A stretch of DNA of 10,780 nt, taken from Thermoflexales bacterium (GTDB lineage Bacteria > Chloroflexota > Anaerolineae > Fen-1058). Below the pieces are notes generated by a model that saw only the letters and a list, made by a program, of their open reading frames with translations, had not been told where the DNA came from and made no database searches. The DNA is taken from assembly GCA_016931085.1 (NCBI GenBank), contig JAFGFO010000439.1, forward strand, positions 1-10,780, in the 5' to 3' direction. A program made the translations under genes and the position numbers. Positions within the stretch are counted from its first letter, which is position 1. Each line of letters starts with the position of its first letter. Of this stretch, positions 136-10,498 are shown piece by piece.

Positions 136-1551
136 CTATTTCTCGGCCTTGCGTTCCTCTTTGGCCCGCTGTGCTATCTTTTGAAACGCTGTGCTCATGC
201 CCTTGATCGGGTTGATAAAGGTGTCTACGGCCACCTGCCACGCATCCGGCGCAGTCTCAGCCAGGGTGCGAAACAGCCGCTGCACGCGGCTTTCTTCAGC
301 CTGATCGCCCTTGTGCGCCTCGGCTTCCAATTTTTGCACGGCATCTTGTGCGTCATCCTTATCCGCGCCGGCTGGCAAGGCACCTACTTGCCGCATGATT
401 GCGCCAAAGGCATGGGCGATTTCATCGCCACTTAATCCTTGCCTCACAGTAGCCCGCGCACCACGGCCAATCGCGACCGCTGTGCTGCCCGTGATGTTGC
501 CGACGGTGATCTTGTCCCCACCAACCTTGTCGCCATGCACCTCATCGCCGTGAACGATCTTGTCTCGGCCTACATAATCGCCACCGGCCGTAATCTTGTC
601 GCGGCCAACAGAATCGCCCCCCACGCTGGTCACGCTGCCGGCTGCAATGGGTGCCAAAGGATCAGGCGCGGGCTGCCCCTTGCTCAAACCCTTACCGCCC
701 AACAGCAGCGCAACCGGAAAGTTGCCGCTGATTTGAAAGTCTGGCACCTGGTCGGCATCGCACTCTTTCTTGGCGCTATCAGGCACGCGCCGGTAGACGT
801 GGCTCATCACGTCAGAGACCAATACTTCTTTTGCACCCTCTTGTGGTTGGGCATGGCCGGTGAGCGCCTCAATCAGGTGGTAGGTAAAGATGCTCATCTT
901 GCCGTCTTTACGTATATAGGAACTCTGATCACCTGACGAAGAGCTAAGCACAGCACGGCCTTTGCCGAGCGCCAATGTCTCCATCTTTGCACCCTTGGCG
1001 CTAGGTCCAACAGGGGCCTGTTCACCTTGCATCAGCAGCAAAGGCGTCACGGCTGCCTGGGCATATCCGGCCGGCACAGACAATGCCCCCTTGATACCCA
1101 TCCCCGATGCGTGACAGCAATCAAGCACGACCAACAAGCGGCGCGGCGCAAGCGCGCCAATCGCTTCGGCCAAGTCTGTTGCCCGCAAAGCGCTCAACTT
1201 GACTTTTTCTTCTTTGAAATCGTAGGGCACCAGGAAGAATTCCGCTTGACTGCCCGAGCCTTCCCGCAGGCCATGCCCTGTGTAGTAGACGATAGCAGTT
1301 GTGTTGTCACTGCTATCAGCTTTGATACGCGCCTGTAGCCAATCCAAGCCATTCAGGATGCCCTGGCGAGTGGCGGCCTGGCCGGTGATGGTTTTGACAT
1401 TATCGCTGGGGTAGGCGCAACGTTCCGGGTGTGTCAACACCGTGCTGACTGCATTGATGTCCTTGATGACAGCGGGCAAAGCCCAAGTTGCAACACTGTT
1501 TTCATTCACGCCGATGAGAAGCGCGTAACCATTGGTGAATTGGTCAGTCAT
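136..1551 (-). CDS. Metacaspase (peptidase C14 family) with Gly-Asp repeat stretch and helical C-terminus
   Basis: This 471-residue cytoplasmic protein has a caspase p20-type fold at residues 1-280. The N-terminal strand is YALLIGVNE. The catalytic His is H93 in YYTGHG, and the catalytic Cys is C146 in LDCCHASG, where D144 is the residue that in metacaspases favours a basic P1 residue. Residues about 305-365 form a low-complexity repeat built on Gly-Asp or Gly-Arg-Asp steps (GGDSVGRDKI, GGDYVGRDKI, HGDKVGGDKI, then GNITGSTAVAIGRGA), probably a small beta-solenoid or assembly module. Residues 375-471 are helical and Lys/Glu-rich at the end. Bacterial metacaspases of this kind act in regulated cell death or defence and cleave after Arg or Lys; the substrate here is unknown. 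A GA-rich ribosome site (GAGAGAGGGAC) precedes the ATG. There is no signal peptide. Confidence 0.92.
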   Translation of the reverse strand: MTDQFTNGYALLIGVNENSVATWALPAVIKDINAVSTVLTHPERCAYPSDNVKTITGQAATRQGILNGLDWLQARIKADSSDNTTAIVYYTGHGLREGSGSQAEFFLVPYDFKEEKVKLSALRATDLAEAIGALAPRRLLVVLDCCHASGMGIKGALSVPAGYAQAAVTPLLLMQGEQAPVGPSAKGAKMETLALGKGRAVLSSSSGDQSSYIRKDGKMSIFTYHLIEALTGHAQPQEGAKEVLVSDVMSHVYRRVPDSAKKECDADQVPDFQISGNFPVALLLGGKGLSKGQPAPDPLAPIAAGSVTSVGGDSVGRDKITAGGDYVGRDKIVHGDEVHGDKVGGDKITVGNITGSTAVAIGRGARATVRQGLSGDEIAHAFGAIMRQVGALPAGADKDDAQDAVQKLEAEAHKGDQAEESRVQRLFRTLAETAPDAWQVAVDTFINPIKGMSTAFQKIAQRAKEERKAEK

Positions 1552-1635
1552 GTCCCTCTCTCTCTATGAAATCGCTTTGCTGATGACGGCTTGGGCAATA
1601 CCCCTTACAGCACTCGGGTGAGCGCGAATCATTCC

Positions 1636-1681
1636 AAACACAAACAGGTCACCTGCTGGTTTCCCAGCAAACAGTGACCTG
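1636..1681 (-). terminator. Hairpin with T-rich tail, likely terminator after the recombinase gene
   Basis: Arms CAGGTCAC (1645-1652) and GTGACCTG (1674-1681) enclose a second stem, TGCTGG (1654-1659) with CCAGCA (1664-1669). Read on the minus strand the inner stem closes on a GAAA tetraloop and the outer stem is followed by TTTGTGTTT. This suits a leaky intrinsic terminator between the recombinase gene and the metacaspase gene. The tail is interrupted by G, so it could instead be a stable leader hairpin of the metacaspase message. Confidence 0.5.
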
Positions 1682-1708
1682 TGCGAGCGTCCTGGTTTGG
1701 CGATATTG

Positions 1709-1717
1709 TGATATAAT
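1709..1717 (+). promoter_or_regulatory. Extended -10 promoter on the plus strand
   Basis: TGATATAAT is a perfect TGn-TATAAT extended -10 element. No good -35 lies 17 bases upstream, which extended -10 promoters can tolerate. It points away from the metacaspase gene, into the gap between it and the recombinase gene, and a terminator-like hairpin follows within about 80 bases. Confidence 0.45.
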
Positions 1718-1723
1718 CTCTAT

Positions 1724-1787
1724 TGCCAGGCGCGCCCGCAGCGCCGGCCAATTGCCCGGATGTGTCACCATCGCGGGCACATTTTTA
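1724..1787 (+). ncRNA. Putative short plus-strand RNA of about 64 nt
   Basis: Bounded by the extended -10 element at 1709-1717 and the hairpin/T-tract at 1753-1786. It would contain a 5' hairpin (GGCGC 1729-1733 with GCGCC 1741-1745) and the terminator hairpin. No open reading frame of note fits. It would be antisense to the untranslated region following the recombinase gene. The ends are predicted from signals only. Confidence 0.3.
1753..1787 (+). terminator. Intrinsic terminator, plus strand
   Basis: The stem TGCCCG (1753-1758) with CGGGCA (1774-1779) is followed by CATTTTTAAT. The T-tract (1782-1786) lies on the plus strand only, so it terminates rightward transcripts. The stem is short and the loop long (15 nt). 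Confidence 0.4.
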
Positions 1788-1850
1788 ATCTGATTTAATT
1801 GTACCCTGGTTCTTGTTTATTGCAAAGTTTGAAACGGCGAGGTTGGCTCT

Positions 1851-2744
1851 CTATGACTGCGCCAGCTTTTCCACAGCTGCTCTCCGGTCTGTCTCGGTAG
1901 AACGGGTGTAACGCGCCGTCGTGTTGATATTCTCGTGACCCAGCAAATCGGCCACGGTGACCAGATCGGCGTCCCCGTCACGCAAAAGCAGCGTGGCAAA
2001 GCTGTGCCTGAGGACATGGGGAGACACATTTTCGAGGTTTGCCTGCCTTGCATATTTGGCCAGGATGCGCCACACACCTGACGGTGTGATCGCCTCGCCC
2101 CGCTGGCCAATAAAGAGGTGATCATCGCCAGCCTCAGCCGGGTTGAGGCGCACTACAATGTACTCGCTCAGATACCGGCGTGCCTCGGCGTTTAACGGAA
2201 TCTCGCGAAACTTGCCCCCCTTGCCGTTCCGCACAACGAGTGTGCCCGAACGTGGCTTGATCTCCACGTCGCCCAAAGCAACATTGCACAACTCGCTCAC
2301 GCGCAAGCCAGTATTTGCCAATGTCGTTACAATCGCAATGTGCAACGGCCGGCCCGATTGTTGTACCTTGCGTACGAGCCGGTTGAGATCAGAACGCTCA
2401 AGCGCCTTGGGAGGAGTTTTGGCTTGCCTGACGCCCTTGATTCCGGCCGTGGGGTCAGCTTGGAGAATGCCGGCGCCTACTGCCCACCGGCAAAACGCAG
2501 AGAGCGCGGCCAGCTTGCGGTTGGCGGTAGCGGGCCGGGCCCTGCGGGAGGCAATCAGGTGTGATTGATATGCGCGGACATCCTCGTGGGTGATCCCGGC
2601 CGGATCAAACATCTCGCCATAGGTCTGCTGCGTCCATGCAGCATAATCCCTGAGATCGGCCAGGTAACCACGCCGGGTCATCTCACTCTTGCCCTGGCGG
2701 GCCATATCCGCATCAAAATCGTTGAGATATTTTTCGACCATCAT
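1851..2744 (-). CDS. Tyrosine recombinase, XerC/XerD type
   Basis: The length (297 residues) matches the XerC/XerD family. The N-terminal helical SAM-like DNA-binding domain spans about 1-100. The catalytic domain carries the full set: R148 in NTGLRVSEL, K175 in NGKGGKFREIPL, H243 and R246 in SPHVLRHSF, H270 in LLGHENINTTARYT and nucleophile Y279. All six positions fit an active enzyme that cuts and rejoins DNA through a 3'-phosphotyrosine. On an element like this it could act as integrase or as a dimer resolvase; the Xer-like length and lack of an arm-binding extension slightly favour resolution. ATG occurs at both 2744 and 2741. The AAGGAG site suits 2741 better by spacing (7 rather than 4 bases). 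The gene starts 14 bases after the stop of its upstream neighbour, so the two are likely co-transcribed. No convincing target site was found. Confidence 0.95.
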   Translation of the reverse strand: MMVEKYLNDFDADMARQGKSEMTRRGYLADLRDYAAWTQQTYGEMFDPAGITHEDVRAYQSHLIASRRARPATANRKLAALSAFCRWAVGAGILQADPTAGIKGVRQAKTPPKALERSDLNRLVRKVQQSGRPLHIAIVTTLANTGLRVSELCNVALGDVEIKPRSGTLVVRNGKGGKFREIPLNAEARRYLSEYIVVRLNPAEAGDDHLFIGQRGEAITPSGVWRILAKYARQANLENVSPHVLRHSFATLLLRDGDADLVTVADLLGHENINTTARYTRSTETDRRAAVEKLAQS

Positions 2745-2758
2745 CTCACTCCTTCACC

Positions 2759-3835
2759 TCAGCGTATGCGACGCCATGCCCAACGCCCGCTTTGCATCGC
2801 TTCCAGGCTGGTCAAGCAAATCTCGCCGGCGGGCAGACTTGCCTGGCTAAAGATATCAATTTGTTTTTTCAGTTGATCTTCATTGAACAGTACCAGCGCC
2901 AGGTGATGGGTCAATTCTACTACCTTGCGCCATTTGGTATTGAATCGCTCTGACGCCTCGCGCTGCACTTCGACCGGCCAACGTTGACCATTTATCGTTA
3001 CCATCAGATCAGGCTCGACACGCGTGTTCCAGCGGGCCTGGGCATCAGCCAGGATAACGTCCGGATCGTCGTCAACCTGGTGTCCGGCTGCGCGCAAGAT
3101 GTCGCGCACTTCCAGGATGGCGACCGCATGCGTGATGGATTGGTGTTTGCGCGCAAACACGTACAACTCGGACTCGACCGGTTCTTTGCCAAAGGCCTGG
3201 CGGTAATATGTGCGGGCCAAATCTGTACCCACTACCAGACGCCTGCTTCCCCCTGGCATTATTGAAAAGCCAACTGGCCTGCCTTTTTCTCTATAGTCGT
3301 CGAGCAATCCGGATTTGATCAACTTTTTGATAGCATTACGGACGCCGTTTTTGTTTTGCGCGTGACCACTTGTAATCAGCCGGGCAATAAGTGGCCACGA
3401 ACGTCCCAGTCCCTCGCCCATGACCAGCCGGACAATTTCGGCCTGTAACTCGGAACGCAATTGGACCGTTTCGGCCGGGATGGTCGCCGTCATTGTTTGC
3501 GGCTTTCGCTCCAGCTCGGCAGCCAGTTGGGCCACTTGATCCTGCAAGCGTTGGATCTCTTGCTGTGAGCATGTGTTGATACCCTGAAAAACGTGCATCG
3601 TGTCAAGCGCATCGTGCAATTCCTCTAGCGTCTCGATAGCGAGATCGGCCACAAGGCGATTGGCGTAGATGCGCCGTGAGGGTTTGTAAACGCGGTGTAG
3701 CGCATGTGACCACGTGGCGCGCCATGATCCGATTTCACTCTCACACTCACCGCGTTTGCGCCTGACGCGGTATATATCAGCAATGCCTTGATATACTTTG
3801 TTCAACTGTTCCGTGGTAATGTGTGTCTTGCTCAT
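2759..3835 (-). CDS. Replication-relaxation-like protein: coiled coil, winged helix and PD-(D/E)XK-like fold
   Basis: A 358-residue soluble protein. Residues 1-85 are helical and basic; 88-112 look like a short coiled coil (QQEIQRLQDQVAQLAAELER). Residues about 128-200 look like a winged helix, with SWPLIARLITSG and NAIKKLIKSGLLDDYREKGR as recognition and wing parts. Residues 230-315 resemble the nuclease-fold half of replication-relaxation proteins: THAVAILEVRDIL, then VEPDLMV (E274, D276) and WPVEVQRE (E289, Q291). Q291 stands where active PD-(D/E)XK enzymes usually have Lys, so catalysis is doubtful and DNA binding more likely. Family members help plasmid replication or mobilisation. The start is supported by AGGGAG seven bases upstream. 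The next gene (recombinase) follows after 14 bases. The assignment rests on motif resemblance only. Confidence 0.72.
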   Translation of the reverse strand: MSKTHITTEQLNKVYQGIADIYRVRRKRGECESEIGSWRATWSHALHRVYKPSRRIYANRLVADLAIETLEELHDALDTMHVFQGINTCSQQEIQRLQDQVAQLAAELERKPQTMTATIPAETVQLRSELQAEIVRLVMGEGLGRSWPLIARLITSGHAQNKNGVRNAIKKLIKSGLLDDYREKGRPVGFSIMPGGSRRLVVGTDLARTYYRQAFGKEPVESELYVFARKHQSITHAVAILEVRDILRAAGHQVDDDPDVILADAQARWNTRVEPDLMVTINGQRWPVEVQREASERFNTKWRKVVELTHHLALVLFNEDQLKKQIDIFSQASLPAGEICLTSLEAMQSGRWAWRRIR

Positions 3836-4244: not shown

Positions 4245-4292
4245 ATTTTGATGCGCCATACAAATGTCCTTGATTCTATGGCGCATGAAAAT
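4245..4292. repeat. Long inverted repeat immediately after parR
   Basis: ATTTT-G-ATGCGCCATA (4245-4260) is mirrored by TATGGCGCAT-G-AAAAT (4277-4292): 15 paired positions with one central G/G mismatch around a 16-base loop. The right arm runs into the last base of the parR stop codon. No clean T-tract follows on either strand, so it may be a 3'-end stabiliser, a processing or weak termination hairpin, or a protein-binding site. Confidence 0.7.
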
Positions 4293-4534
4293 CAAAATAC
4301 CAGCGCACCGGCGATGTCTTGGAGCACTTGGCCGTCGTCGACATTCATGCCTTCGGCGACAGCTCGTACTCCACCGGCCCGCATAGTTGCCAGGGTGACT
4401 CTGGCCCTATGCCTGGGCGGGGTGCGCTCGTACAGAGCGATAATGTCGTCATCCTCCCCCTCACGTAGGACAAGGGTCAGGCGGATACGAACTCTTCGAC
4501 TTGTGTCTTGGGGGCGGCCGCGTTTTCTGCTCAT
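4292..4534 (-). CDS. ParR-like ribbon-helix-helix centromere-binding protein
   Basis: An 80-residue basic protein. Residues 13-56 have the layout of ribbon-helix-helix partition adaptors: a beta strand (RVRIRLTLVL), then acidic EGEDDDIIALYERTPP opening the first helix and a second helix (RHRARVTLATMRAGG). In type II partition the adaptor binds centromere repeats and links them to the ends of the ParM filament. Its ATG overlaps the stop of the parM-like gene as ATGA (4531-4534), the usual sign of translational coupling and of fixed stoichiometry. The order parM then parR is the standard order. Sequence alone gives a weak family call; the neighbour makes it likely. Confidence 0.75.
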   Translation of the reverse strand: MSRKRGRPQDTSRRVRIRLTLVLREGEDDDIIALYERTPPRHRARVTLATMRAGGVRAVAEGMNVDDGQVLQDIAGALVF

Positions 4535-5520
4535 TCTTTCTTTTGCGAGAGAGCGAGCTTGTACAAGCCGCGAGCGGTCGCCAGCACCGGGTCATCCGGC
4601 ATCACTGCCCGACCCTCGAAATAGGTTGTGAGCGGGGATCGGAGCAGGATCGCCCCACCGCCCACGAGGACGATGGAGGCAAAGCGCCGCCAGGCCCGCC
4701 CCCACTTTTTCTCGATAAAGCCGCGCACTTCTTCGGCCCACACAGGTATGTGCCCGTTCACATCCAATTGCCCGGCGCGCAGTTGAGCGTCCAGCTCGCC
4801 CAAGGAATAAAATTGCTGCAGATTGACGAGCTCGAGCAGCCGGCGCACGCCGCAGGTCGAGCCGGCGGTAAATTTCTGAACAGGCGATCTGTCCTTGACG
4901 ACCATCAGTTCGACCGTATTGAATCCGACCGAGGCGATTCCCAACTCTTTCTTGAAATCGCCCTTGCGAGCCGGAATAAGCCGGCCGTCATCATCCAGCA
5001 CATGGTCGAACAGCGCGCCCACGGCCTGCGACGTGACCTTGACCTCGGCCACGTCCACCTGGTACTCTTGACCATCGGAGAGCCAGGTGTGCGTGCCTTT
5101 CATCCACCTGCGCACAGCCTCGATGTTAGCCGTGACGGTTGCCTGCTCGCCAGCCATCGGCTCCAACGGCAAGCCGACTGTGATGGACAGCGGTGCATCG
5201 AGCGGGCCGTATTGTTGGGAAAACCTGGTCAAGCAGCCGTAAAGTAACGCGCGCATTTCAGGCGCGCTTGAGAATAGCCGGTCATAGTCCAGGTTTTCGA
5301 CTGCTCGGCCACAATTGTGAGCGCCTGGCCCGACGTGGAACGAGCCGGCCGACGTCACCACTTGCATAGGCAGCTTCTGGCTGCGCAGGCCCATCATGCG
5401 CGCCAGGCGCTGGCCGCCGTTGACCGAAACCTGCGTCTCCATCTCCAACCCTCCCAACGGGCCTTGGAGCTTGAGGGCGCCCATTCCAAAGTCGAACCCC
5501 AAAGATATGCTGTTGTTCAT
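4531..5520 (-). CDS. ParM-like actin-type ATPase for plasmid segregation
   Basis: A 329-residue actin-fold protein. Phosphate-1 motif: LGFDFGMGALKL (residues 7-18, D10). The strand SITVGLPLEP at 112-121 is typical of ParM/StbA-like proteins. Phosphate-2 region: ASVGFNTVELMVV (196-208), where the usual Asp before Gly is replaced by Ser/Val. Adenosine motif: IVLVGGGAILL (283-293). The C-terminus MPDDPVLATARGLYK is the usual end of this family. ParM forms ATP-driven filaments that push plasmid copies apart. The frame is open upstream to 5784, but I chose 5520 because AAGGAG lies 8 bases before it and the phosphate-1 motif begins at once. A large inverted repeat and candidate centromere repeats lie just upstream; the parR-like gene overlaps its stop. 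Confidence 0.88.
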   Translation of the reverse strand: MNNSISLGFDFGMGALKLQGPLGGLEMETQVSVNGGQRLARMMGLRSQKLPMQVVTSAGSFHVGPGAHNCGRAVENLDYDRLFSSAPEMRALLYGCLTRFSQQYGPLDAPLSITVGLPLEPMAGEQATVTANIEAVRRWMKGTHTWLSDGQEYQVDVAEVKVTSQAVGALFDHVLDDDGRLIPARKGDFKKELGIASVGFNTVELMVVKDRSPVQKFTAGSTCGVRRLLELVNLQQFYSLGELDAQLRAGQLDVNGHIPVWAEEVRGFIEKKWGRAWRRFASIVLVGGGAILLRSPLTTYFEGRAVMPDDPVLATARGLYKLALSQKKE

Positions 5521-5582
5521 TTGATTTACTCCTTGTGTGTATGTTTGCCAATACTTATCTATCGCCTGTCTGCTTGTCCCTG

Positions 5583-5626
5583 TGTGGGGGCCAGTGTGCC
5601 CCCTCATTGCCGCACTGGCCCCCACA
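5583..5626. repeat. Perfect 14-bp inverted repeat upstream of parM
   Basis: TGTGGGGGCCAGTG (5583-5596) and CACTGGCCCCCACA (5613-5626) surround a 16-base loop. An alternative hairpin competes with it: GGGGGC (5586-5591) with GCCCCC (5598-5603). It sits about 50 bases before the parM ribosome site in the leader, where it could serve as operator, attenuator or translational control hairpin. There is no T-tract on the minus strand. Confidence 0.75.
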
Positions 5627-5710
5627 AAGAGTGCAATCACAAGCGTGACTGTATCTTGTCTAATCCTCATATTTTGAGTTTCCACTTTCACTTCACCAAT
5701 TTTGCTCACA

Positions 5711-5840
5711 GGATAGGGTTTCGCATCATTTTTGAGTATACGGGATACAAGGATACAGGATGCCAGGCTAAAATCGCCCTCCAACTTGGCCCGTATCCTA
5801 TTCGCCGTGCTCGCATCCCGCTATATCCCCCCCGTATCCC
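5711..5840. repeat. Candidate parC centromere: short phased repeats
   Basis: Rightward half: GTATCC at 5793, GCATCC at 5813, ATATCC at 5823 and GTATCC at 5834, spaced 20, 10 and 11 bases, i.e. on one helical face. Leftward half, in the opposite orientation: GGATAG at 5711, GGATAC at 5743 and 5751, GGATGC at 5758. The cluster lies between the stop of the FtsK-like gene (overlapping its last bases) and parM. Arrays of about 10-11 bp upstream of parM are where ParR binds in type II systems. I see the repeats directly; the centromere role is inferred. Confidence 0.6.
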
Positions 5841-7251
5841 GAGTTTCAGCAGGCGCTGCTGGGCGCAACCCGGCCACTCTAAGCAGCGTCTCAGTCACCC
5901 GCCGCGAACCATTCCGCCCGTTCTGCGGTGTCAGCCACCCCATCTGCTCCCACCTGGTTGCCATGTCATTGATGGTGCCATTACCTCTGTGAAACACCTT
6001 TGCCAACTCGTTGACCGTGAACGCACCACGCAAATTCTCCCAGGCAAAACGGACAAGCTGGCGCTCGAAATCCGAAATCGTCGGACCGCCGCCGGACCGG
6101 CGCAAGTCTTGAACCAGTTTGCCGACAGCCTCGTCGGACAGGCAATATCCCTGCAATTCCATCGGTGGCCCGTCTAGCTTGGCCAACATCCGACCGGGCC
6201 GGTTGCGCGGGATGTCCTGCGCACCCGGACAGCCGGCCACCTGGGCCGCACTCCGGTCATTGACGCGGAAAACGAGCCGGCTGGCCAGGTTGACGTTCAC
6301 CACACGCGGCAGGCCGGACACCGCGGCCGCGTGCTGGGTGGCGCACCACAGGATGACGCCCGCGCTCCGGCCTCGGGTGGCAATGATCTTGAGATAGTCG
6401 GCGACACGGCTCCTGTCGCCCGCCTGCAGCGTCAGGTCGATCGTCTCGTCGATGGCTACCAGGATGAACAGCAACAGATCACCCGCTCGCTTTTTGTTGT
6501 AGGCGGTTATGTCGCGCATCCCCGCCCTGCCAAGCACGTCGCCGCGCCGGTCCACCTCGGCCGCCGCGTTGGCCAGCGCCTTTTCCGCCTGGTCGGGTGT
6601 GGTCGCAATGCCTTCTAGCAGATGGGGCACTCCCTGCCAGGGCGTCAGCTCATTGCGCTTGGGGTCGATCAGCACTAGGCGCAGAAGGTCAGGCCCATTT
6701 GCCTTGAGCAGCGCGCTCAGGGCCGCGTGGACAAACATCGACTTGCCGGCCCCCGTCGCGCCGACGAGCAGCGTGTGCCCCATTTGAGGCAGTGTGAGTT
6801 GCACTGCTCCCTCGCCGCCGATACCAATAGGAACCAACAACTCTCCAATTGGCAGATTGCCAAGATCAAGCGGCACCCGCGTGGGTAGCCGGACCGCGCA
6901 AACCTTGGGCCGCGGTTTCAACTCGACCACGACGGTCAACGGCCGGCGCGTCGTCCAGACCGTTTTTTCCAAAACGTCAGATAGGGTATGGATGATTTTG
7001 GGATCCACCAGGTTATCCGTGGGGAGCCACAGTGTTTCAGTGTCAATCGTATAGCTGGCCATCTCGTCACCCACCAAATGAGCTGCACGAAAACGGATTC
7101 CACGCACGCTGCCATCCTCCTCCTTGTGGGTAAACCCCATCCGGTCGTATGAGCGTAGAATCTTGTAGCCGATGACCTCAGCTTCCTTGATCGGTAAAGC
7201 CGACAAGCCTCTGGCATTCGTTGGTGTCATTGATCTCATTGTTGCTGACAT
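5821..7251 (-). CDS. FtsK/SpoIIIE-type DNA translocase without membrane anchor
   Basis: A 476-residue ATPase of the FtsK/HerA class. Residues 1-150 form a soluble N-terminal region. Walker A: LLVGATGAGKS (K170, S171). Next comes RLVLIDPKRNEL (191-202), a hallmark of FtsK-type pumps. Walker B: LFILVAIDET (D268, E269). ATRGRSAGVILWCATQ (291-306) is the arginine and sensor region. Residues about 395-455 look like a winged helix (FTVNELAKVFHRGNGTINDM), comparable in place to the FtsK gamma domain. Chromosomal FtsK has four N-terminal membrane helices; none is seen here. The start at 7251 is supported by AGAGG eight bases upstream and overlaps the end of a membrane-protein gene by 16 bases. Likely roles are DNA pumping in segregation or double-stranded-DNA conjugation, with the two upstream membrane proteins as anchor. 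Confidence 0.9.
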   Translation of the reverse strand: MSATMRSMTPTNARGLSALPIKEAEVIGYKILRSYDRMGFTHKEEDGSVRGIRFRAAHLVGDEMASYTIDTETLWLPTDNLVDPKIIHTLSDVLEKTVWTTRRPLTVVVELKPRPKVCAVRLPTRVPLDLGNLPIGELLVPIGIGGEGAVQLTLPQMGHTLLVGATGAGKSMFVHAALSALLKANGPDLLRLVLIDPKRNELTPWQGVPHLLEGIATTPDQAEKALANAAAEVDRRGDVLGRAGMRDITAYNKKRAGDLLLFILVAIDETIDLTLQAGDRSRVADYLKIIATRGRSAGVILWCATQHAAAVSGLPRVVNVNLASRLVFRVNDRSAAQVAGCPGAQDIPRNRPGRMLAKLDGPPMELQGYCLSDEAVGKLVQDLRRSGGGPTISDFERQLVRFAWENLRGAFTVNELAKVFHRGNGTINDMATRWEQMGWLTPQNGRNGSRRVTETLLRVAGLRPAAPAETRDTGGI

Positions 7252-8096
7252 GGGTCAGACCTCTGTGCATTGTGATCAAGATAGTCTCTAAACCTGTCGA
7301 TTGCATCTTGATCGTTTATGACTGTTACTCTACTCATACGCGAGCGCCCCGATTCTGGCAGCGCCAGCACAGGCGCAGGCGTCACGTCTACCACAACCCC
7401 GCTCGCTGGTGGGTAGAAGTCAGGCGTGAGTGGCGGCGCGGGTTGTTGGCCTCTGCCGCCGATCTGCTTGGCCCAGGATGCAATAACATATGCCGTGTCG
7501 ATCAGCGCCATAATCGCCGCCGCGTACAGCAAATAGACGCCCAAGTCGTATTGGCGCTGCCGTTCCATGAGCTCTAGCTCGTAGGCATCTTGAAGCGCCT
7601 GCGCCTCAATCGCCTGGCGTGTAGCTGCGGCTGCCTGAGCCTGGTCAGTGGCACGCGCACTCTGCGCTTGAGCAGTCGCTGTCGCTTCCATCGCTTGCTG
7701 GGTTGCCCGAGCCGCCATCGCTTGCTGCGTCGCCGCAACTTCAAGCGTTGCATGCATAATCGCCGCCTGGCTGGTTGCCACAGATGCCACGTACTGAGCC
7801 TGCAAGTCGCCCGCTACCCGAGTCGCCTCGGCCGCCTGTTGAGCTTGCCTGGCCCGCGCTGCCGCTGCCGCCGCCGCCGCTTGCTTGGCCTGCGCTTCCA
7901 ACTGGGCCGCCTGGCTCTGCACGCTGCCGGCCGATCGCATTGCACTGATAGCCGATGTCGTCGCCTGAGCCTCGATAGCGGCCTGGGTAGCCAGCGCGTT
8001 CAAGGCATCCTCGGTCGCCGGCTGCTGGGCACAGACCGGCACAATCAGGACGATCAAAATTAGGCTTACCAACGCGCAGGCCAAAATCTTGGTCAT
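7236..8096 (-). CDS. Ala/Gln-rich coiled-coil envelope protein with inner-membrane helix and cytoplasmic tail
   Basis: 286 residues. Residues 1-23 form a signal peptide or N-terminal anchor (hydrophobic core ACALVSLILIVLIVPVCA, plausible cleavage after VCA). Residues 28-185 are a long Ala/Gln/Thr-rich helix with coiled-coil character and internal repeats (ATQQAMAAR, ATQQAMEAT), somewhat like the TolA stalk. Residues 187-207 form a membrane helix (GVYLLYAAAIMALIDTAYVI). A Pro-rich linker (215-240) and a C-terminal tail follow. The tail VTVINDQDAIDRFRDYL (257-273) closely matches the tail of the neighbouring membrane protein. Topology suggests the stalk is outside and the tail in the cytoplasm. 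Two bases separate it from its upstream neighbour, and it overlaps the translocase gene by 16 bases, so the three are one unit. I know no named family; a scaffold or anchor role is inferred. Confidence 0.85.
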   Translation of the reverse strand: MTKILACALVSLILIVLIVPVCAQQPATEDALNALATQAAIEAQATTSAISAMRSAGSVQSQAAQLEAQAKQAAAAAAAARARQAQQAAEATRVAGDLQAQYVASVATSQAAIMHATLEVAATQQAMAARATQQAMEATATAQAQSARATDQAQAAAATRQAIEAQALQDAYELELMERQRQYDLGVYLLYAAAIMALIDTAYVIASWAKQIGGRGQQPAPPLTPDFYPPASGVVVDVTPAPVLALPESGRSRMSRVTVINDQDAIDRFRDYLDHNAQRSDPCQQQ

Positions 8097-8098
8097 AG

Positions 8099-8884
8099 TT
8101 ACCCCGCCGTTTCCAAGACATATTGGCGATAGTCGGCGATTTGTTTGGGATCGTCGATTACTGTGATTTGCGGCATGCGTTCGTGCACTTCGGGAAGTGC
8201 CGGCTGTACGTGATTGCTTCCCCTTCCTCCCAGGAAAGCTCGCCCGATGCTGATCTGCAAATCTGGCCAGCGATTTTGCGCGGCGGCCAGGCTGACAGCA
8301 TTGGACGATAATGCCGCCTGCAATTGGGCCGGCTCGCTGCCACTAGGCAGGTACTCACCCACTACTTGGGGCAATCCCGATGGCCGGCCGCGCAGCCTGG
8401 CCATAATCTCTGCTGTTATATCGAGCATGGTGGGCACCCGGTACACCGCGCCAGGGTCAAGATTGCGCGACGGATCGTGGATGATTTCCCATCCAAACCC
8501 GCGCCGGATGATCAAAGGATACTGCCCCTTGCCATCAGGATAGATCGTGGTAGCTTGTTTGGCCAGACAAGCCAACCCCACGAAAACTAATCCTACCAGC
8601 CCCACCAGCGCTGCCACACCGACCTCGATAGCCACCAGCGCGCTGCGCAGGACAAGGATAGGCGCTGCCGCCTGGGTCACTTGTCGCTCAATCTCACGCG
8701 CAGCTGCCTTGTCTGCCGCTTCCATTACCACGCGGATAGCCTGGGCCTCGTTCACGGGATTGCCAACCCGCAACCCGTTGCTGTCCAGGTTCCACGAGTA
8801 GCCGGCCATGGACGAGATAACACAGCTTCCCGCCACCAGGGCCAGCACGAGCATCACAATGGTTATTCCACCGCTATGTTTCAT
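8099..8884 (-). CDS. Two-helix membrane protein with C-terminal motif shared with its neighbour
   Basis: 261 residues. Hydrophobic segments at about 8-28 and 76-107 flank a 47-residue predicted extracytoplasmic loop, so both termini are likely in the cytoplasm. Residues 110-230 form a soluble domain (IIRRGFGWEIIHDPSR, VPTMLDITAEIMARLRG) that I do not recognise. The C-terminus ITVIDDPKQIADYRQYV (240-256) shares T-V-I-D/N-D-x3-I-x2-Y/F-R-x-Y with the last residues of the protein encoded at 7236-8096. Start: GGAGGTG lies five to six bases upstream of ATG 8884. The gene overlaps its upstream neighbour's end by 11 bases and is followed after 2 bases by the coiled-coil protein gene. A role as membrane dock for the FtsK-like pump is an inference from order and the shared tail. 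Confidence 0.83.
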   Translation of the reverse strand: MKHSGGITIVMLVLALVAGSCVISSMAGYSWNLDSNGLRVGNPVNEAQAIRVVMEAADKAAAREIERQVTQAAAPILVLRSALVAIEVGVAALVGLVGLVFVGLACLAKQATTIYPDGKGQYPLIIRRGFGWEIIHDPSRNLDPGAVYRVPTMLDITAEIMARLRGRPSGLPQVVGEYLPSGSEPAQLQAALSSNAVSLAAAQNRWPDLQISIGRAFLGGRGSNHVQPALPEVHERMPQITVIDDPKQIADYRQYVLETAG

Positions 8885-9925: not shown

Positions 9926-10498
9926 TTAGGAAGGAGGCTCACTTTGAACATAATCATGTTCTTGCCTGGTTCCGACGACGAAATGTACTTGTACGCTTTG
10001 CCCGACGATGTTGGACAGAGTTCGTTGGATAAGGGAGTGCAGTCGGTTTTCCAACCAGTCTTTGGCGTAACCGTTGTGGACGCCAATGACGAACATGCCG
10101 TTCTCGTAAGACATGACGGTTGCCTGGCGCACCCACGTATCGAACGTGGCGTGCGGCATCTGCATTTGTAGTTGCCCCAGGGCGGTTTGCCAAGCCTTGT
10201 ATTGCTCCGATAGCCCTTGCTCGACCGAAAGGCTTTCATCACCCTCTTTGTCCTCGTCGTAATCCTCGGTTTCGTCCTCGTCATACTCCTCGGTTTCATC
10301 AGCCTGGTGATATGACTTCCCTCTGATAAAAGCTTCCCACTCTGCCGAAACGTCACCATTAGAGTATTTGCGTAGATAGCGCGGCAAAGGTTCATCGCCA
10401 TCCCTCAGTTTGGTCAGAAATAGTCCAGGGACTTTGCCAGCATCATCTTGCTGTCGTCTATCTTTCACTTCGGCCAGAATGGCCCGCAACTCTGACAA
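9926..10498 (-). CDS. Replication-initiator-like protein with DnaA domain I (DnaA_N) at its C-terminus, 5' end uncertain
   Basis: From TTG 10498 there are 190 residues. Residues 1-60 are helical and basic (SELRAILAEVKDRRQ, then VPGLFLTKLRDGDEPLP), a layout seen in the middle of plasmid initiators. Residues 66-88 are an acidic linker with an 8-residue repeat (ETEEYDED, ETEDYDED). Residues 102-175 match DnaA domain I well: AWQTALGQLQMQMPHATFDTW, then ENGMFVIGVHNGYAKDWLENR and GQSVQVHFVV. In DnaA this domain recruits the DnaB helicase and binds other DnaA copies, so here it may load the helicase at the element's origin. TTG 10498 has no ribosome site, and coding-like sequence continues upstream to a TAG at 10700-10702, so the true gene is probably longer or broken. 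Confidence 0.75.
   Translation of the reverse strand: MSELRAILAEVKDRRQQDDAGKVPGLFLTKLRDGDEPLPRYLRKYSNGDVSAEWEAFIRGKSYHQADETEEYDEDETEDYDEDKEGDESLSVEQGLSEQYKAWQTALGQLQMQMPHATFDTWVRQATVMSYENGMFVIGVHNGYAKDWLENRLHSLIQRTLSNIVGQSVQVHFVVGTRQEHDYVQSEPPS
10251..10298 (-). repeat. Tandem 24-bp repeat encoding the acidic linker
   Basis: Two copies of 24 bases, 10251-10274 and 10275-10298, differ at three positions. In frame they encode ETEEYDED and ETEDYDED. The unit length is a multiple of three, so copy-number change would alter linker length without a frameshift. Confidence 0.8.

Follow-up and report, generated by a model that had tools for sequence, protein, structure and literature searches.

The contig JAFGFO010000439.1 of a Thermoflexales bacterium (Chloroflexota) was analysed over its whole length of 10,780 bases, referred to here as the window. 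It carries three adjoining genes, which code for an FtsK-like ATPase without a membrane part and, directly upstream, for two membrane proteins, A and B. We conclude that these genes probably encode a split, membrane-tethered pump for double-stranded DNA that belongs to an integrative, plasmid-like element, which is open at both contig ends. The protein family, the gene order, the natural fusions of the parts and their exchange during evolution can be read from the sequences themselves.

The FtsK-like ATPase and its membrane partners

The ATPase (476 amino acids, positions 5821..7251, minus strand) consists of an N-terminal domain (residues ~1-115), a motor with the Walker A motif at ~164-171, and C-terminal helices. 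By the Pfam family criterion it is an FtsK/SpoIIIE protein (PF01580 at 9.1e-28, 97.7 bits versus a cut-off of 24). An initial annotation of this stretch had described the protein as lacking a membrane segment, and this holds. No transmembrane (TM) segment and no match to the FtsK membrane domain PF13491 were found at its N-terminus, and the sole hydrophobic 19-mer (residues 259-277) is not a membrane helix, because it covers strand 262-268 of the predicted fold. A membrane domain elsewhere in the element was looked for as well; the scan of 10 window proteins, from a contig incomplete at both ends, gave no PF13491.

At an E value of 0.1 the ATPase matched neither PF17854 nor PF09397 (gamma winged helix) in Pfam. 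The predicted structure has C-terminal helices at 394-436 and a strand at 450-452, which may be read as a winged helix. When the model was compared with known structures, the FtsK motor was the best match, and a TcpA-like fold was matched too. Most of the alignments span residues 117-388 only; for a small number of FtsK and TcpA chains they extend as far as residues 14-25. The idea that the N-terminal domain is a special docking domain was given up because of these longer alignments; going by the model, it may simply be the FtsK alpha domain. A type VII secretion ATPase was also rejected, as the EccC/EssC models scored far below their cut-offs (e.g. 70.9 bits versus 509).

Membrane protein B (286 amino acids, 7236..8096, minus strand; RVTVINDQDAIDRFRDYL) overlaps the ATPase gene by 16 bases, and a gap of 2 bases separates it from membrane protein A (261 amino acids, 8099..8884, minus strand; QITVIDDPKQIADYRQYV). 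In a simple hydropathy scan B has an N-terminal signal or TM segment (4-22), an alanine-rich stalk and a second TM segment (187-205), followed by a putative cytosolic tail. By the same scan A begins with a hydrophobic segment (1-19), and a predicted outer helix, a TM segment (90-108), a putative cytosolic part and a C-terminal tail follow. Neither protein matched Pfam (E 0.1) or PHROGs (E 0.01). The single NCBIfam match of B, to DNA polymerase III gamma/tau, is weak (14.3 bits versus 1260) and was taken as compositional. The initial description of two directly adjoining membrane proteins outside the Pfam and PHROGs families, one with an alanine-rich stalk, was thereby confirmed.

Protein A looks like a lipoprotein, because Cys21, at the end of the N-terminal hydrophobic segment, is invariant in 15 of 15 aligned relatives and because the pattern which we take to be the lipobox fits window A and all seven fused database proteins described below. 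The A proteins of the loci L177, L178, L179, L181, L184, L185 and L166, the database proteins P0131 and P0136-P0138, and all B proteins do not fit this assumed pattern. A lipoprotein signal on A would place its N-terminus outside and its tail in the cytosol. Searching the PDB with A gave two weak matches, the better one, 33 positions long, to a phage coat protein (E 0.015), and both were taken as chance.

Conservation of the gene set

Profile A1, made for the ATPase, was positive in 1 of 400 genomes of a phylum sample (two genes) and in 9 of 396 genomes of a class sample (ten genes); a third sample of 301 genomes, which overlaps the 400, gave the same single positive, G015. In these large scans 4 to 6 candidates were scored for each genome; complete scoring, carried out in 20 genomes from a single order and in 14 from a single family, returned the same three positives. 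On genome and viral contigs profile A1 returned mostly ordinary FtsK. From the protein database, 120 of 268 ATPase relatives were listed. Named relatives there include Thermoflexales and Chloroflexi, and the genome relatives fall in the class of an Anaerolineae bacterium.

Thirteen loci with the ATPase, the window included, were obtained, and in two of them (L182 and L187) the upstream sequence is missing or too short. An A-type protein, alone or followed by B, lies immediately upstream of the ATPase in all 11 assessable split loci. The initial annotation had suggested testing whether the whole trio is conserved across Chloroflexota elements. Conservation holds for A but not for B, since a B-like protein between A and the ATPase occurs in only five of the 11 loci (window, L177, L180, L183 and L185), which counts against the pump as we read it. 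The protein of L185 counts as B-like chiefly on account of its position and topology (14% identity), and in L186 one single partner protein holds both the stalk and the A domain. In L180, gene B (7486-8433 in the reverse complement) has an in-frame stop between the stalk and the TM part.

On the same 396 genomes profile A4 marked 22 A places in 19 genomes at E <= 1e-4. Nine are loci already found by the ATPase and 13 are further places. At eight of the latter an FtsK-like ATPase follows (L213, L215, L216, L217, L218, L219, L220 and L223), with L216 and L223 cut by the contig end, L219 showing only the first part before a stop, and the ATPase start of L218 indistinct. At three places A is fused to the ATPase (L211, L221 and L222, the motor of L222 being cut short). 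The remaining two are ambiguous: L212 stops after a further 141 bases, and L214 has a short A frame and ~0.6 kb left in which no ATPase is seen. A leads into or is fused with an FtsK-like ATPase at 20 of the 22 places, and no place clearly breaks the partnership. A membrane gene found mostly without the FtsK-like gene, which the initial annotation had named as evidence against a joint pump, is thus not what was observed for A. As profiles A4 and A5 were built from loci that they find again, the count of 11 of 11 rests on the reading of the upstream open reading frames, and the 13 further places of A4 are independent.

Fused relatives and probable exchange of anchor and motor

In the protein database profile A4 found 18 proteins, and seven of these (P0128, P0129, P0130 and P0132-P0135; 554-629 amino acids) are single chains with A in front and the PF01580 motor behind. 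The natural fusions of A and motor thereby amount to ten, one of them with the motor cut short. Residues 7-209 of window A are 42% identical with P0128, the alignment stopping before the window tail (237-256), and the P0128 motor is 34% identical with residues 119-304 of the window ATPase. The existence of relatives in which anchor and motor form a single chain suggests that the separate pieces work as one machine.

A profile of the N-terminal domain of the ATPase gave matches at E <= 1e-3 in 66 of 68 split ATPases; P0057 and P0064, which it missed, are N-truncated. The profile found none of nine fused chains, in all of which (9/9) the A domain was found. Just 7-71 residues separate A from the motor in the fused chains, which leaves no room for a domain of ~115 residues.

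The arrangement of A, B and ATPase is beyond chance, since both the family and the gene order recur in other genomes; chance neighbours were rejected on the conserved order together with the fusions. A related explanation would be that the neighbours are unrelated membrane proteins and that the ATPase, like TdtA of Thermus, acts independently of them. TdtA, an FtsK-HerA ATPase, was found in soluble and envelope fractions and is encoded, as in the window together with a XerC-type integrase, on an integrative element, the 14.9-kb ICEth1; its four-gene operon further comprises genes for a NurA-type nuclease, a restriction enzyme and a methylase, and no membrane partner is named there (PMC5365140). 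With the adjacency conserved and ten fusions at hand, we regard such independence of the window ATPase as very unlikely. Instead, the position of A upstream of the ATPase, its retained partnership and the fusions make it very probable that the anchor is supplied in trans, as the initial annotation had proposed.

Phylogenetic trees point to an exchange of the parts. The first trees comprised 27 motors and 25 A domains, the A tree without the split A proteins P0122, P0123 and P0131. The window motor grouped with L177, L180 and L183 (97/95), whereas window A grouped with the seven fused proteins (98/99). After P0122, P0123 and P0131 had been added, in second trees that left out L213, L215, L217, L218, L220 and L221, window A was nearest to P0122 in a group of 11 that includes the seven fused proteins (98/98). 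The window motor fell in a group of six with L177, L178, L180, L183 and P0011 (100/100), and the window-A group contains none of the A proteins of L177, L180, L183 and L178. P0131 stands beside P0135 within the fused group of the A tree (96/99). P0131 and P0011 are probably neighbours, because their contigs agree in length (8827) and source (jgi), and this would probably be a fused-type anchor next to a split-type motor. The disagreement of the A tree and the motor tree suggests that anchor and motor were exchanged in evolution, with the caveat that both trees have long branches and several unsure rows.

If this is true, the membrane part of an FtsK-type pump would be a separate, exchangeable module. 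The contribution of the membrane domain to a DNA translocase would then become testable, because related anchors come in two forms, as part of the motor chain and as proteins of their own.

The C-terminal tail of the probable anchor

In an alignment that covers 252 residues of A, the split protein P0131 shows 60% identity with the fused protein P0135; residue 255 of P0131 is the last one matched. The tail of P0131 (285-304) lies beyond this match, and only the split member of the pair possesses it. In the window, the C-terminal stretches of A and B are related to each other, with a score of 53 that shuffling attained once in 2000 trials and four times in 5000. The same likeness was seen in L180 (0 of 5000 shuffles) and L183 (1 of 5000). 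Window A compared with the B tails of other loci scored 22-31. The argument for the tail is built on the P0131/P0135 pair, on the end of the alignment between window A and P0128, and on the comparison of A with B. A tail that is common to A and B and missing from the fused anchor is what a docking peptide would look like, and on these alignments we consider it a candidate for one.

Proposed mechanism

We infer that the ATPase, an FtsK-type motor without a membrane part, forms a ring in the cytosol. A, joined in some elements by B, would span the membrane with one TM helix and extend outside as a stalk with a lipid or signal anchor. The cytosolic part of A and B would dock with its short C-terminal tail on the ring, perhaps on the N-terminal domain of the ATPase. 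In the fused relatives A forms the front of the motor chain, which has neither the tail nor space for the N-terminal domain. Like TraB in the elements of actinomycetes, the pump would most likely move the DNA of the element through the envelope, and the neighbouring partition NTPase would keep the element in dividing cells. By this analogy with TraB elements, transfer of double-stranded DNA is judged the likeliest function and segregation its main rival. Taken to its full extent, the proposal describes a conjugation machine for double-stranded DNA of Chloroflexota elements that is free of a relaxase and of a type IV secretion system. An FtsK-type ring would sit in exchangeable lipoprotein-stalk anchors via a short tail, with the parts swapped, split and fused, and transfer similar to that of the actinomycete integrative and conjugative elements (AICEs) would exist outside Actinobacteria. 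We put this forward tentatively, as a possibility that falls short of being probable.

Apart from the patchy occurrence of B, several observations weigh against this reading. With E below 1 as the limit, a profile of the tail recovered nothing but the proteins used to train it or identical ones, and it missed the split A proteins of L177, L178, L179, L181, L184, L185, L186 and L166, P0136-P0138 and the second subfamily. Its failure to match any of the ten fused chains is therefore weak by itself, as it also misses split A outside the training set. Trained without the window, the tail profile found window A (1.4e-5) but not window B (E 20), and in L177 and L185 the tails of A and B show no such likeness. 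We regard the weakness of the tail profile as balanced by the P0131/P0135 pair. L218 and the four ordinary FtsK rows listed (P0069-P0072) are likewise missed by the N-domain profile, which is weak in L186, L213, L215, L217 and L220. The fused motors are only 30-34% identical with the window motor over the aligned part, and the predicted structure of A is poor (predicted local distance difference test, pLDDT, 59). Short repeats in the contig that were considered as clt or iteron candidates gave two-copy matches only, a GGATAC-like motif was not above chance, and no clt-like repeats were found. The element in the contig is incomplete. Finally, TcpA, the coupling protein of the Clostridium perfringens plasmid pCW3, still transfers at a reduced rate when its TM part is missing (mutant lacking 46-104; PMC7431656), which means that an anchor is not always needed.

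Comparison with known systems

FtsK/SpoIIIE translocases carry an N-terminal membrane domain in the same chain, unlike the window ATPase. With TcpA the window ATPase shares an FtsK-type motor with a TcpA-like fold; TcpA has its own TM part, whereas the window ATPase has none. The closest parallel to the proposed transfer is TraB with the Spd proteins of Streptomyces plasmids and AICEs. The membrane protein SpdB2 is reported to interact with TraB, and AICEs combine an integrase with one FtsK-type transfer ATPase (PMC3218068, PMC4170104). The window likewise has a tyrosine integrase (PF00589, 1.1e-34) and one protein with an FtsK/SpoIIIE domain (PF01580). The TraB model NF041214 scores the window ATPase below its cut-off (27.2 bits versus 800), Pfam gave no RepAM or Prim-Pol match among the 10 proteins of the window, a contig incomplete at both ends, and AICEs were reported as confined to Actinomycetales (PMC3218068).

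A published grouping of coupling proteins has one class that lacks a membrane domain, with TraJ/TraI of pIP501 as example, and another of FtsK-like proteins (PMC7431656); TraI is described as the likely anchor of TraJ (PMC13037476). The pIP501 pair resembles the window in that an ATPase without TM segments has a separate, putative membrane anchor, encoded next to it in the window. TraJ, however, belongs to a complete type IV secretion system and is VirD4-like, whereas the window ATPase has an FtsK-type motor. From this precedent, and from the match to the coupling protein TcpA, it could be argued that the window ATPase is the FtsK counterpart of TraJ/TraI and serves a conventional relaxase and a type IV secretion channel encoded elsewhere. 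The Pfam scan of 10 window proteins, from a contig incomplete at both ends, found no relaxase family. In the host genomes of the relatives the relaxase PF03432 was present in 1 of 18, on a contig other than that of the pump, while the control was positive in 1 of 14 genomes; this search covered one family, a limit that weighs against the proposed pump. On balance we hold a conventional coupling role to be unlikely.

A further layout was noticed on plasmids of Priestia megaterium (L210, L231 and L232), where a small protein, an FtsK-domain protein and a third protein occur in the same order on the three plasmids viewed. On the one checked by sequence, the first two are a 99-aa protein with two TM segments and a 377-aa FtsK without TM segment. 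The membrane protein was not matched by the A and B profiles (E ~0.3), the FtsK had no N-domain match, and the third protein had a sub-threshold match to Replic_Relax (21.3 bits versus 25.3). This trio is apparently a second, unrelated split layout, in Bacillota.

The initial annotation had seen the arrangement as unlike any described system, a claim that is weakened by the TraJ/TraI class and by the Priestia layout. Split coupling ATPases and FtsK-type transfer ATPases such as TcpA and TraB have precedents, and the window system is a variant of this kind. No description of such a split-anchor FtsK system was found in the literature on FtsK in mobile elements and partition of Chloroflexi/Anaerolineae, soluble FtsK with membrane anchors, TM-less coupling proteins, the anchors of pIP501 and replication-relaxation proteins with FtsK, which was covered by titles and abstract openings and mostly outside subscription journals.

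Surroundings of the proposed pump

The main genes of the contig all lie on the minus strand, in the order: a protein with a DnaA_N domain, two small proteins, A, B, the ATPase, an actin, a small overlapping protein, a 358-aa protein, a tyrosine recombinase and a caspase-domain protein. The two contig ends were compared and do not overlap, so that a circular contig is not supported and this reading was dropped.

The gene adjoining the pump (4531..5517, minus strand, ATG start at 5517) encodes an actin-like partition protein of the ParM/Alp type (PF17989 at 4.4e-11, PF21522 at 9.6e-7, the partition protein phrog_691 at 7.5e-21, ParM structures at ~1e-3). It is overlapped by the gene of an 80-aa protein (4292..4534, minus strand) without a family match, a relative of which lies beside the actin gene of L180; it is probably a ParR-like partner of the actin. 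A 17-bp inverted repeat (5580..5629, 94% complementary) was found by repeat search between the pump gene and the actin gene, and with a second one (4245-4292) it flanks the actin gene and its small partner. The two repeats may be either terminators or centromere-like sites.

Partition NTPases were counted on 26 contigs (window, L166, L177-L187 and L211-L223) with phmmer seeds from the same loci and Pfam confirmation. They occur on 12 of the 26, and many of the other 14 contigs have only 3-8 kb. The protein is of the actin type in the window, L180, L183, L186, L213, L220 and L223, of the ParA type in L185, L217, L218 and L221, and of the tubulin type in L179, where a tubulin/FtsZ-type GTPase (677-1858, minus strand; PF00091 at 7.7e-13) takes the place of the actin-type protein of the others. 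Five contigs (window, L212, L217, L218 and L220) carry DnaA_N proteins and five (window, L181, L182, L214 and L218) tyrosine recombinases; serine recombinases were found on L179. Such surroundings fit an integrative, plasmid-like element with a small DNA pump.

The same split pump could also serve segregation, by clearing element DNA from the closing septum or, together with the ParM, ParA or TubZ filament, by placing copies in the daughter cells, with no transfer from cell to cell. The partition NTPases of three unrelated kinds, ParM directly beside the window pump and FtsK as the best structural match of the motor argue for this. Yet the partition type varies while the pump stays, which suggests a replaceable plasmid module rather than one machine; no partition NTPase was seen on more than half of the contigs, and the presence of integrases next to several of the pumps suits an element that has to move. 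We therefore think segregation rather doubtful as the sole task of the pump.

An FtsK/HerA-type ATPase together with small membrane proteins is also the general plan of membrane-containing phages. The window ATPase could accordingly be thought to package the genome of such a phage or satellite, with the small membrane proteins at the portal. PHROGs (E 0.01) gave no capsid or portal family for the 10 window proteins, and a packaging motor was rejected on this result. The one terminase-like PHROGs match of the ATPase (3.9e-9) is far below its FtsK matches, viral contigs scanned with query A2 and a degenerate DNA pattern yielded nothing, and the phage records, 20 of 180 listed, are distant FtsK-like proteins. 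Packaging is thus extremely improbable.

The remaining window genes include one for a protein with a DnaA N-terminal domain (9926..10498, minus strand; PF11638 at 2.6e-10) and the tyrosine recombinase of the XerC/integrase type (1851..2744, minus strand). Between recombinase and actin lies the gene of the 358-aa protein (2759..3835, minus strand); its family was not assigned, as a likeness to replication-relaxation proteins seen by eye was not confirmed by searches. The caspase (136-1551, minus strand; PF00656) has a TCAD2 domain and GDxVGRDKI-like repeats, lies beside the integrase and is probably conflict or defence cargo of the element.

In the relatives, a DUF2637 membrane protein (1.3e-20) lies ahead of the fused pump of L221 (6133-6984, plus strand). 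A phmmer relative of it (2.7e-18; Pfam DUF2637 not matched) is located beside the fused pump of L211 (3669-4595, minus strand). An IstB-like ATPase occurs in L220 (11537-12526, plus strand), joined to a DnaA_N domain, and in L180 (16639-17391, minus strand), possibly as a replication or helicase-loading module of these elements. In L183 only, genes resembling those of Tad/Flp pili (SAF, weak RcpC, ParA-like, T2SSE ATPase, weak T2SSF) were noticed at 9520-15998 (plus strand), ~3.6 kb downstream of the pump on the same contig.

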